Assembly (NCBI GenBank): GCA_029261155.1 | Contig: JAJDBW010000061.1 | Coordinates: forward strand, 1 to 64,000 | Source of the DNA: Nitrospirota bacterium | GTDB lineage: Bacteria; Nitrospirota; Nitrospiria; SBBL01; JAADHI01 | Length of the DNA: 64,000 bases | Reading direction: 5' to 3' | Shown: positions 11,800-45,986 of the stretch, one piece after another | Layout of the letters: each line of letters opens with the position of its first letter | Position numbering within the stretch: the first letter of the stretch is position 1 | Notes under the pieces: generated by a model | What the model saw: the letters and a program-made list of their open reading frames with translations, nothing else | What the model was told of the DNA's origin: nothing | The model's database searches: none | Made by a program: the position numbers and the translations under genes

Positions 11800-12423
11800 A
11801 TGTTTTTAGAAACCTTCCCGGTTGGGCCTTTTCAATGCAATTGCTCCGTCTTGGCTTGTGAGGAAACCCGCTCTGCCGTGGTGATCGATCCCGGGGAAGA
11901 CGCCGATCGAATCCTTGCCCTGCTTTCGGATCAAAACTTTAAACCAGTTTTCCTTTTACATACCCATGCGCATTTAGACCATGTCGGCGCAAGTGACGCT
12001 GTCCAAAAAACTGCCGGCGGCGAAAACTGTTTACATGAAGACGACATGCCTCTGTGTAATATCCTGGGTATACAGGCAGAATTGTTCGGGCTGCCTGAAC
12101 CCACGACACCCACGATTGATCGCTTTTTAATAAACGGGGATCGGCTTCAATTTGGGAAAGAAACGATTGAAGTCTTGCACACACCGGGACACACGCCGGG
12201 TAGCCTGAGCTTTTTCATTCCCGGGAGCGGGCTATGGACGGGAGATACCCTCTTTGCCGGGAGCGTTGGGCGCACCGATCTCTGGGGTGGATCGCATCCG
12301 ACTTTAATCGATTCGATCCACAAAAAACTGCTTTCCTTTCCGGGAGAAACGTGCGTTTATCCTGGGCATGGCGGGCCGACCGCAATCGCGGTGGAGAAAG
12401 AAAGGAACCCTTTTCTCCAATGA
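11800..12423 (+). CDS. MBL-fold hydrolase, glyoxalase II-like
   Basis: Intact HTHAHLDHVGA, TPGHTPGS, YPGHGGPT. Confidence 0.9.
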   Translation: MFLETFPVGPFQCNCSVLACEETRSAVVIDPGEDADRILALLSDQNFKPVFLLHTHAHLDHVGASDAVQKTAGGENCLHEDDMPLCNILGIQAELFGLPEPTTPTIDRFLINGDRLQFGKETIEVLHTPGHTPGSLSFFIPGSGLWTGDTLFAGSVGRTDLWGGSHPTLIDSIHKKLLSFPGETCVYPGHGGPTAIAVEKERNPFLQ

Positions 12424-13403
12424 CCACCGGATTCATCTCCCATCCCGATACGCTTAAACACGATACGGGTCTTGGACATCCGGAGTCATCCCGTCGGCAA
12501 TCGGTGATACAAGAGCGGGTAACGAAAATCGCCCGACCGAAAGAAGGTTCCGATCAGGGCCTGCCCCTAGAGCTGATTCAGCCCATTGCGCAACCCGATC
12601 TCTATCAGTGGGTCTCCAAGGTTCACCAAACCCCCTATATTGATGATTTAAAACAACGGAGTCCCCAAAAAGGGCGAATTTACCTCGATCCGGATACGCC
12701 GCTTGGCCCTGGATCACTCAAGGCCGCGGAATGGGCCGTCTCGGGTATTTTAACGGCGGTCGATTGGGTTATGGAAAAGCGGCTGAAAAATGCCTTTTGT
12801 GCCATACGCCCCCCCGGCCATCATGCTGAAAAAGACCACGCCATGGGATTTTGCCTCTTCAACAATGTGGCCATTGCGGCAAAATACATCCAAATAAAAT
12901 ATGGCCTTGAGCGCGTTTTGATTATCGATTGGGACGTCCATCACGGCAATGGCACGCAAAATAGTTTTTACAGCGATCCGAGTGTGTTCTATTTTAGTAC
13001 GCACCAATTTCCCTGCTATCCCGGCACTGGGAGAAACCAGGAAAGAGGCAGCGGCGAGGGAGAAGGCTTTACCTTGAATTGCCCTCTACCGAGTGGCTCG
13101 GGGGATAGACATATCCTTTCCAAGTTCGAAAAGGAACTGGAAGAAGCGTGTTCCTCATTTCGACCGAATTTTATCCTTATTTCCGCCGGATTTGACGCCC
13201 ATCGTGATGATCCCCTTGCGGGACTCGAAGTCACAGAAAGCGGTTTTCAAGAGATGACAAGGATTGTAAGCGCACTGGCCGCCATGCATTGCCATGGACG
13301 AATTGTGTCTTCTCTGGAAGGCGGATACAACATGGAGGCCTTAAGCCGATCGATTGAAAAACATCTGGAAGTTTTATGCAATTTTTCTCCTATAAAAGCT
13401 TGA
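12420..13403 (+). CDS. Histone deacetylase/acetylpolyamine amidohydrolase family protein
   Basis: RPPGHHAEKDHAMGFCLFNN, IDWDVHHGNGTQNSFY, ISAGFDAHRDDPL; ATGA overlap with upstream stop. Confidence 0.92.
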   Translation: MTTGFISHPDTLKHDTGLGHPESSRRQSVIQERVTKIARPKEGSDQGLPLELIQPIAQPDLYQWVSKVHQTPYIDDLKQRSPQKGRIYLDPDTPLGPGSLKAAEWAVSGILTAVDWVMEKRLKNAFCAIRPPGHHAEKDHAMGFCLFNNVAIAAKYIQIKYGLERVLIIDWDVHHGNGTQNSFYSDPSVFYFSTHQFPCYPGTGRNQERGSGEGEGFTLNCPLPSGSGDRHILSKFEKELEEACSSFRPNFILISAGFDAHRDDPLAGLEVTESGFQEMTRIVSALAAMHCHGRIVSSLEGGYNMEALSRSIEKHLEVLCNFSPIKA

Positions 13404-43301: not shown

Positions 43302-44216
43302 ATGGATTACCAAAAAATTCTGGATGAAATTTATGAAGAGACAAGGCCTCTGCTGGGGCAAGGCCGCGTGGCGGATTATATCCCCGCCTTGGCACACGTC
43401 GATCCAAAAAAATACGGCATTGCAATTGAAACCCTGGAAGGCGGATGCTTCCATGTGGGCGATGCGGCTGTCCCTTTTTCAATTCAAAGCATTTCGAAGG
43501 TCTTTGCCTTATCAATGGTGCTAAAGGTCTTGGGCGAAAAACTGTGGACCCGCGTCGGACGCGAACCCTCTGGCGGGGCCTTTAATTCTCTTGTTCAATT
43601 GGAGCGGGAAAACGGCATTCCGCGGAATCCCCTGATCAATGCTGGGGCCCTGGTGGTGACCGATTGCTTAAGCTCGATCACCGAGAATCCACTGCATCGC
43701 CTTCTCGAATTTGTACGCAAAAATTCGGACAATCCGCAGGTGAATTACGACAGTTTGATTGCGAACTCGGAACGGGAAACCGGCTATCGCAATGCCGCCC
43801 TCGTTAACTTCATGAAGAGTTTCGGAAACATCGAAAACGATGTCGATGCCGTATTGAATATTTATTTTCACCAATGCGCGCTCATGATGAGCTGCATCGA
43901 TCTGGCGCAAGCCTTTTTATATTTTGCGAATGGCGGCAGACATCCGATCACTCAAGAGCAGGTTATTTCCCTGAGCCAGTGCAAGCGGGTCAACGCGGTG
44001 ATGCAGACTTGCGGCTTTTACGACGAGTCGGGCGAGTTTGCATTTTCTGTCGGCTTGCCCGGAAAAAGCGGCGTCGGTGGTGGCATCGTCGCCGTGATTC
44101 CCAAGATGCTTTCCATCTGCGTCTGGTCACCCGAACTCAATCCAAAGGGCAACTCCTTGGTGGGCATGAAGGCGCTGGAGTTGTTTACAACGAAGACCGG
44201 CGTTTCTATTTTCTAA
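43302..44216 (+). CDS. glsA: Glutaminase
   Basis: VPFSIQSISKVFALSMVL, REPSGGAFNSLVQLERENGIPRNPLINAGALVVTD; start at ATG 43302. Confidence 0.95.
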   Translation: MDYQKILDEIYEETRPLLGQGRVADYIPALAHVDPKKYGIAIETLEGGCFHVGDAAVPFSIQSISKVFALSMVLKVLGEKLWTRVGREPSGGAFNSLVQLERENGIPRNPLINAGALVVTDCLSSITENPLHRLLEFVRKNSDNPQVNYDSLIANSERETGYRNAALVNFMKSFGNIENDVDAVLNIYFHQCALMMSCIDLAQAFLYFANGGRHPITQEQVISLSQCKRVNAVMQTCGFYDESGEFAFSVGLPGKSGVGGGIVAVIPKMLSICVWSPELNPKGNSLVGMKALELFTTKTGVSIF

Positions 44217-44246
44217 GCGTCGCTTTATTCGACTGAAGCGGAGACC

Positions 44247-45986
44247 ATGATAAAGATCTCTATATTAAACGATTCGCATTTCCCGCTTGCCGGAAACAGG
44301 ATGGCACAGGTGCAGGAGATTTTCCGCCAAAGCTTTCCCGATCTGGCCGACTATGCGGATGCCCTCCCCTCCCGCTTGCAAGACCCCATTGAACATGGGT
44401 ACCGATCGATGCTCCTGATTGCCGAGCGGGTACTGGGTCAAGTGGAAGCCTTTGCCCTCCTTGTCCATTTTCCCACTATTGGGTGCGCCTTCCTGGATTA
44501 TATTGCATCGAGAGGCGTCGTCCGTGGAACCGGTGTTGGGAGTGCGCTCTATGAAGGCGTTCGAGAACTTTGCCAGGATATGCAGGTGAAAGGGCTCTAC
44601 ATTGAAGTCCAACCGGATCGAGATGCAGCAAGCGCCGATACGCTCTTGATGAAAAATGCGGAAAAACGGATTCGTTTCTATGAGCACTACGGCGTTCGAA
44701 TTATCGACAATCCGGCCTACTCGGTGCCCGTGGGCGATCCTTCGACATCGGCCTTCCTACTTTATGATTGCTTAGGTAAGACGCCGACTTTAAAACGTAA
44801 GGAAGCGCAAACAGCCGTTGAAAAGATACTGACGCAACGCTTTGGGCACCTTGCCGATCCGGCCTATCTTCAAGCGGTTCTTCAAGGTTTTCCGAACGAT
44901 CCGGTTTCCTTTCTCCCCTTTCGTTCTAAAAAGATTCAAGAAGAAGACGGCTTAATTCTCACGCAACGCCTTTCCAAGTGGTTCGCCGTGGTGCATAGCC
45001 CGAAACACGAACTCCACCATGTCAAGGAACGGGGTTATTTTGAACGGCCGGTCCGTCTGAATGCAATCAATCAAATCTTAAATGCGGTCCATCTCTTTTC
45101 GCCCGTTACGCCAAAAAAATACAGCGACAAACATCTCTTAGCCGTACACGACGCCGACTTTGTGACCTATTTAAGGACCATCTGCACAAAGCTCAAGGAA
45201 AAGCGACCGGTCTACCCCAACACCTTTCCATTGCGCCGAAAGGTCAGTCGTCCAAAAGTTTTGGCCGTGCAAGCCGGATATTATTGCATCGATACGGGGA
45301 CACCGCTCTATCCCAACGCCTACATTGCCGCCCGTGCGACGGTCGATACCGTCCTCACCGCCGCTGACGAAATCCTAATGGGCAAACGCATGGCCTATGC
45401 GGTGTGCCGCCCGCCGGGCCATCATGCCGGGAAACGATTTTACGGCGGATTTTGCTACTTTAACAATGCGGCTATCGCGGCGCAATATTTGGCCTCACAG
45501 ACCCAAAGCCGAATCGCTATTTTGGATATCGATTTTCATCACGGCAACGGCACGCAAGACATCTTCTACGAACGCGCTGACGTATTGTTTGTGTCGATAC
45601 ACGGCCACCCCGACTATGCCTACCCTTATTTCAGCGGTTATGCGGACGAATCTGGTGAAGGCCCTGGCCTCGGCTTCAATCGAAATTTTCCTTTGCCGCC
45701 GCAGACCGACGAAAAAAAATATCTGAGCACCTTCAAAACGGCACTGGAAACGATTATGGATTTTAAACCGGAAGTCCTCGTCGTCTCTGTGGGATTCGAC
45801 ATTTTAAAAGGAGATCCCACCGGTACCTTCCTGCTGCCACCCGCCATCTTCCGCAACATCGGAGAAGGCTTGATGGCGACACGTATTCCCCTACTCCTTG
45901 TACAAGAAGGTGGATACAACATTCGCAATATCAAACGCGGCTGCGTGGCCCTCTTCAATGGACTACAGGCTTCGAGCGCTGCATAG
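44247..45986 (+). CDS. Fusion: N-terminal GNAT acetyltransferase + C-terminal HDAC-family deacetylase
   Basis: GNAT motif A (VRGTGVGSALYEGVREL) and HDAC motifs RPPGHHAGKRFYGGFCYFNNAAIAAQYL, LDIDFHHGNGTQDIFY, VSVGFDILKGDP in one uninterrupted 579-aa ORF. Confidence 0.9.
   Translation: MIKISILNDSHFPLAGNRMAQVQEIFRQSFPDLADYADALPSRLQDPIEHGYRSMLLIAERVLGQVEAFALLVHFPTIGCAFLDYIASRGVVRGTGVGSALYEGVRELCQDMQVKGLYIEVQPDRDAASADTLLMKNAEKRIRFYEHYGVRIIDNPAYSVPVGDPSTSAFLLYDCLGKTPTLKRKEAQTAVEKILTQRFGHLADPAYLQAVLQGFPNDPVSFLPFRSKKIQEEDGLILTQRLSKWFAVVHSPKHELHHVKERGYFERPVRLNAINQILNAVHLFSPVTPKKYSDKHLLAVHDADFVTYLRTICTKLKEKRPVYPNTFPLRRKVSRPKVLAVQAGYYCIDTGTPLYPNAYIAARATVDTVLTAADEILMGKRMAYAVCRPPGHHAGKRFYGGFCYFNNAAIAAQYLASQTQSRIAILDIDFHHGNGTQDIFYERADVLFVSIHGHPDYAYPYFSGYADESGEGPGLGFNRNFPLPPQTDEKKYLSTFKTALETIMDFKPEVLVVSVGFDILKGDPTGTFLLPPAIFRNIGEGLMATRIPLLLVQEGGYNIRNIKRGCVALFNGLQASSAA

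Follow-up and report, generated by a model that had tools for sequence, protein, structure and literature searches.

The locus analysed here raises the question of what a single polypeptide would do with both a GNAT acetyltransferase domain and an HDAC-family deacetylase domain, and on which substrate. The gene lies in a 64,000-nt stretch of a Nitrospirota contig (JAJDBW010000061.1), the whole of which we call the window, and consists of a single ORF of 579 aa that runs without interruption at 44247-45986 on the (+) strand, precisely where an earlier note on this DNA had placed it. That note had proposed opposed acetylation and deacetylation in one chain, with a bidirectional switch, or a substrate such as a polyamine processed both ways, as possible roles.

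Organization of the fused gene

The domains, motifs, and flanking features of the gene are collected in Table 1. The window also contains a second HDAC-family gene, unfused, at 12234-13400 (+), the product of which is ~41% identical to the fused domain over aa 340-565.

Table 1. Features of the fusion gene and its immediate upstream region (window coordinates)
Feature	Position	Strand	Basis
Glutaminase gene, ~30 bp upstream of the fusion gene	43302..44216	+	Pfam Glutaminase, E 3e-117
Shine-Dalgarno-like GGAG upstream of the ATG (44247)	44240..44243	+	Read directly in the sequence
GNAT N-acetyltransferase domain, aa 1-180	44247..44786	+	Pfam Acetyltransf_1; order of secondary structures (AF2)
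Acetyl-CoA pyrophosphate loop R93-G-T-G-V-G98 (R-x-x-G-x-G)	44523..44540	+	G96 and G98 invariant, 50/50
GNAT F144-Y145 pair	44676..44681	+	Invariant, 50/50
Linker, aa 181-247, moderately conserved, helical in part (184-198, 205-213)	44787..44987	+	Conservation profile; AF2 model
HDAC/acetylpolyamine amidohydrolase-like deacetylase domain, aa 248-579	44988..45983	+	Pfam; profile; Foldseek
Extended L2 loop, aa 323-349 (YPNTFPLRR...GYYCID)	45213..45293	+	Aligned through the APAH L2 loop; definition of PMC11532494
His-His catalytic pair H392-H393	45420..45425	+	Invariant, 50/50
DIDFHH motif, aa 427-432, with Zn ligands D429 and H431	45525..45542	+	Invariant
D518, third Zn ligand	45798..45800	+	Invariant
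Gatekeeper segment D523-P-T-G526, counterpart of PIS (APAH)/PEG (HDAC10)	45813..45824	+	Invariant, 50/50
EGGY motif with catalytic Y557	45906..45917	+	Invariant

The fusion defines a family spread over many phyla

A scan of GTDB-representative contigs yielded ~55 full-length orthologues with 37-80% identity from >10 bacterial phyla. These included Nitrospirota, Planctomycetota (Scalindua and another anammox planctomycete among them), Omnitrophota, and Hydrogenedentota, as well as Spirochaetota, Kiritimatiellota, Bacteroidota, Pseudomonadota, Campylobacterota, Thermodesulfobacteriota, Fidelibacterota, and others. The fusion was present in 6 of 198 Nitrospirota genomes; the sixth case, G079, seemed at first sight to encode the HDAC only, but its GNAT domain lies within an over-long ORF, at aa 367-546. 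In a maximum-likelihood tree that included 13 unfused HDACs, picked by their similarity to the query, the fused HDAC domains formed one clade with support of 100/99. Because the presence of the gene is patchy and the phyla are mixed, this pattern suggests a single old fusion followed by horizontal transfer.

An artefactual join of two neighbouring genes, through a sequencing error or in assembly, could in principle give such an ORF, but with ~55 independent full-length orthologues from many phyla falling into one well-supported clade, the probability of this explanation is negligible. A sequencing-error fusion in relatives, which the earlier note had named as evidence that would overturn its reading, is thus excluded by full-length fusions in dozens of independent assemblies.

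Pairwise dN/dS values between close pairs were low for both the GNAT domain (~0.05-0.14) and the HDAC domain (~0.02-0.12), which indicates purifying selection and therefore retention of both domains for function. Both halves are members of known families, and the apparently new part is their combination in one chain and its association with KamA/ATP-grasp genes (see below): no description of either was found in the open-access literature searched, and the fusion may already be listed in domain-architecture databases.

The N-terminal GNAT domain is divergent and conserved at its acetyl-CoA loop

In the window protein, Pfam Acetyltransf_1 (PF00583) matched aa 21-128 with a score of 21.5 bits against a cut-off of 20.7. 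This marginal score is attributed to divergence and not to chance, because 45 of 50 orthologues, each scanned singly against Pfam, matched Acetyltransf_1 at E<=0.01. The acetyl-CoA loop, RGTGVG, conforms to the pattern R/Q-x-x-G-x-G/A, and together with the Pfam match bears out the GNAT domain with an R-G-x-G-x-G motif described in the earlier note. Across the 50 orthologues, G96, G98, F144, and Y145 were invariant, and position 93 was variable (R in 19, T in 15, H in 4, and K in 4); Y145 is a candidate for the general acid of the domain. In an AlphaFold2 (AF2) model built on the 50-sequence alignment (mean pLDDT, 82.5; pTM, 0.75), residues 1-175 showed strands and helices in the GNAT order, with a pLDDT of ~85 for the GNAT domain.

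The domain matched no substrate-specific family in NCBIfam, and its sequence had no significant match in the PDB (best E, 0.11). Since TIGR03827, the AblB family, was unmatched by the window protein in NCBIfam and absent from the window genome, the GNAT domain was rejected as an AblB beta-lysine acetyltransferase.

A Pfam score so close to its cut-off and a motif whose first position varies would also be compatible with a GNAT domain that has become a non-catalytic acetyl-CoA sensor regulating the deacetylase. The low dN/dS of the domain and its four invariant residues count against such a sensor, even though invariance of this kind fits binding as well as catalysis, and we consider it quite improbable.

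The C-terminal domain resembles acetylpolyamine amidohydrolases

Pfam Hist_deacetyl was matched at aa 266-571 of the window protein (E 4e-78) and in all 50 orthologues. The classical catalytic set of Zn-dependent HDACs/deacylases (His-His, D-x-H, D, and GGY) is complete, and H392, H393, D427, D429, H431, D518, and Y557 were invariant in 50/50 orthologues, so that the intact His-His, Asp-x-His, and Asp motifs reported earlier for the window protein hold across these orthologues. The best profile matches of the domain were the acetylpolyamine amidohydrolase (APAH) structures 9gkz (E 2e-103), 6phr, and 3q9b, and the best PDB matches of the AF2 model found by Foldseek were likewise APAHs, with TM-scores of 0.84-0.89 by target length. 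In the 2024 classification of bacterial deacylases, APAHs including MrApaH and PsApaH constitute cluster 4, and their extended L2 loop is termed the "polyamine-specificity loop" (PSL) (PMC11532494). The sequence comparison places the fused deacetylase near this cluster.

The fusions share with the bacterial APAHs MrApaH (3q9b), PsApaH (9gkz), and msAPAH (6phr) the same catalytic core, with all Zn-binding and catalytic residues, and an extended L2/PSL loop, in which Y323, P324, F327, P328, R330, and D349 were invariant in the 50 orthologues, R330 being the equivalent of PsApaH R95. The glycine at the PsApaH G117 position is also found in the window clade. The fusions differ from the APAHs in their additional N-terminal GNAT domain and linker and at several pocket positions. 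Their gatekeeper is PTG in 50/50 orthologues, whereas the PIS motif of APAHs was not encountered; the position of PsApaH D163 (residue 397, R in the window protein) is R, K, S, or N, mostly R or K, and the dimer salt-bridge partner is therefore missing; the position of MrApaH E106 is A, P, S, or E; and the His-His pair is followed by E-R-R or G-K-R.

These features bear on whether the substrate is a protein. In Bacillus subtilis, the GNAT enzyme AcuA and the HDAC-family enzyme AcuC act on AcsA in trans, a functional precedent for acetyl writer and eraser working as a pair, and a fused AcuA/AcuC-like protein could form a protein-lysine acetylation switch with one protein target, e.g., acetyl-CoA synthetase. 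AcuA, AcuC, and AcsA are among the proteins studied in PMC11532494. The cluster 4 enzyme PsApaH, moreover, deacetylates some lysine peptides (PMC11532494). AcuA and AcuC differ from the fusion, however, in being separate proteins with a protein substrate, and AcuC belongs to another HDAC cluster (2c); by its best structural matches the fused HDAC domain is APAH-like and not AcuC-like. The Asp or Glu at the BsAcuC D91 position (PsApaH G117), which is tied to the binding of peptide-type and cyclic-peptide inhibitors (PMC11532494), is replaced by G, F, or C at position 351 of the fusion family. An acetyl-CoA synthetase gene was not seen in the conserved neighbourhood, and the KamA/ATP-grasp context described below suggests a metabolite. 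A protein switch is thus an improbable explanation. A small acetyl-amine is favoured over a protein as the substrate of the deacetylase, because the nearest relatives in both sequence and fold are APAHs and because position 351 is G, F, or C; the claim does not extend to acetylpolyamine.

In some other clades the fusion accompanies a KamA/ATP-grasp/GNAT module

At the Planctomycetota loci, the gene order was TetR, KamA, GNAT-HDAC, ATP-grasp 1, ATP-grasp 2, and small GNAT, and this module was partial or rearranged in Spirochaetota, Kiritimatiellota, Fidelibacterota, and Bacteroidota. The module KamA contains LAM_C and scored 512.7 bits, just below the 525.4-bit equivalog cut-off for lysine 2,3-aminomutase (AblA); the ATP-grasp proteins carry a D-Ala-D-Ala ligase C-terminal domain; and the small GNAT is related to 2r7h, deposited as a putative D-alanine N-acetyltransferase. 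Desulfatitalea sp. BRH_c12 encodes a GNAT-HDAC-GNAT triple fusion of 760 aa (L060:7968-10247, +), the C-terminal GNAT of which shares 49% identity with the module's small GNAT. This context, in clades other than that of the window, speaks for a pathway based on lysine 2,3-aminomutase, and the module genes around the fusion appear to make a lysine-derived small molecule. The AblA/AblB pathway to N-epsilon-acetyl-beta-lysine likewise places a lysine-2,3-aminomutase-like protein beside a GNAT, as KamA is in the module clades, but the GNAT of the fusion system is outside the AblB family, its KamA falls below the AblA cut-off, and it adds ATP-grasp ligases and a deacetylase.

In four Bacteroidales genomes in which the fusion was unlinked to the full module, KamA, ATP-grasp 1, ATP-grasp 2, and GNAT genes lay in this order elsewhere in the genome. 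Of 247 Bacteroidales genomes drawn, 30 had ATP-grasp 1 and 9 had the fusion, every one of the 9 being among those with ATP-grasp 1 (hypergeometric p ~2e-9, uncorrected for kinship). The remaining 21 genomes with ATP-grasp 1 lacked the fusion, and 12 module loci of this kind were read. Since the module occurs in numerous Bacteroidales that lack the fusion, the fusion is regarded as an accessory to it. Nearly all of the loci L136-L146, as well as the Bacteroidales loci L129-L132, contained KamA, two ATP-grasp genes, and usually a GNAT gene in a row, often without GNAT-HDAC. In the genome of locus L006, a KamA-like gene, two genes for ~720-aa ATP-grasp proteins, a peptidase-like gene, and a gamma-glutamyltranspeptidase gene stood in a row (L125:5097-13917), possibly representing a related but distinct peptide pathway.

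The order of KamA, fusion, two ATP-grasp ligases, and second GNAT, along with the co-occurrence in 9/9 Bacteroidales fusion genomes, would suit a protecting-group enzyme: its GNAT domain would mask one amine of a diamino acid with an acetyl group so that KamA and the ATP-grasp ligases act at the intended position, and its HDAC domain would deprotect last. Against this reading stand the 21 genomes that have ATP-grasp 1 and no fusion and the clade of the window, where the module is absent, and we hold this explanation to be unlikely.

The window clade may use a different diamine

In the window genome and its clade (members of Nitrospirota, Scalindua, Omnitrophota, and Hydrogenedentota), the ATP-grasp module was absent, the matches being restricted to Ddl-like and methyltransferase-ATP-grasp proteins. 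The latter, ~650-aa proteins joining a methyltransferase to a D-Ala-D-Ala-ligase-like ATP-grasp domain, are encoded at L124:7604-9553 (window genome, C46) and L127:5648-7579. They were rejected as a partner (L053_5, L124_5): their gene adjoins the fusion once, in a Nitrospirota genome, and otherwise occurs unlinked to it, in many genomes. The glutaminase gene is not relied on as a functional partner either: it is adjacent in some near relatives only. The glutaminase-then-fusion order was common to L003/L083 and L004/L084 and missing in G001, of the same genus; as it is kept only in near relatives, this neighbour is probably incidental.

The pocket positions of the window clade are G351, G395, and N/D325, and those of the module clade are F351, usually E395, and Y325. 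Because these positions differ, the substrate may differ between the two clades, and the window protein may act on a different diamine from its module-linked relatives. The host genome has one KamA homologue, unlinked to the fusion, and speE and speD homologues adjacent to each other, the latter making spermidine a plausible cellular substrate in the host.

A proposed bifunctional diamine acetyltransferase/deacetylase

Motif conservation and purifying selection support the view that both domains are apparently competent, and to this extent the opposed activities put forward in the earlier note stand. We put at about an even chance that the protein is a bifunctional small-diamine acetyltransferase/deacetylase that sets the acetylation of one metabolite pool both ways; in so reading it, we infer that both domains are catalytic and share a substrate, as well as the identity of that substrate and any regulation. 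The N-terminal GNAT domain would use acetyl-CoA to acetylate a small diamine at one of its amino groups, and the C-terminal Zn-dependent, APAH-type HDAC domain would hydrolyse the resulting acetyl amide or its isomer, so that one chain would control the acetylation state of the pool in both directions. A futile cycle might be avoided by reciprocal regulation, by the use of different regioisomers, or by a protecting-group role.

For the clades with the KamA/ATP-grasp module, the probable substrate is an amine of the lysine or beta-lysine type, and for the Nitrospirota clade of the window it is possibly a polyamine. The polyamine-type substrate of the earlier note therefore survives in part: a small amine is favoured, but the gatekeeper is PTG instead of PIS/PEG, the residue at MrApaH E106 is unconserved, and the module suggests a lysine 2,3-aminomutase pathway.

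Bifunctional enzymes with opposed activities in one chain include PFK-2/FBPase-2, GlnE, and RSH. The predicted forward and reverse reactions of the fusion would resemble theirs in arrangement, although the chemistry differs and any reciprocal regulation of the fusion would be hypothetical.

More tentatively, and with considerable doubt, the family could belong to an undescribed pathway spread by horizontal transfer: KamA would make beta-lysine, GNAT-HDAC would reversibly acetylate one amine in a protecting or regulatory role, the two ATP-grasp ligases would couple the product, and the second GNAT would cap it, with the Nitrospirota as a derived branch reusing the enzyme on another diamine.

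The union of writer and eraser of an acetyl mark in one polypeptide that is stable across phyla is unusual, and the fusion makes it possible to ask directly whether bacteria adjust the acetylation of small molecules by means of one bifunctional enzyme. The KamA/ATP-grasp/GNAT module, in turn, hints that uncultured Planctomycetota and Bacteroidales contain a metabolite derived from lysine.
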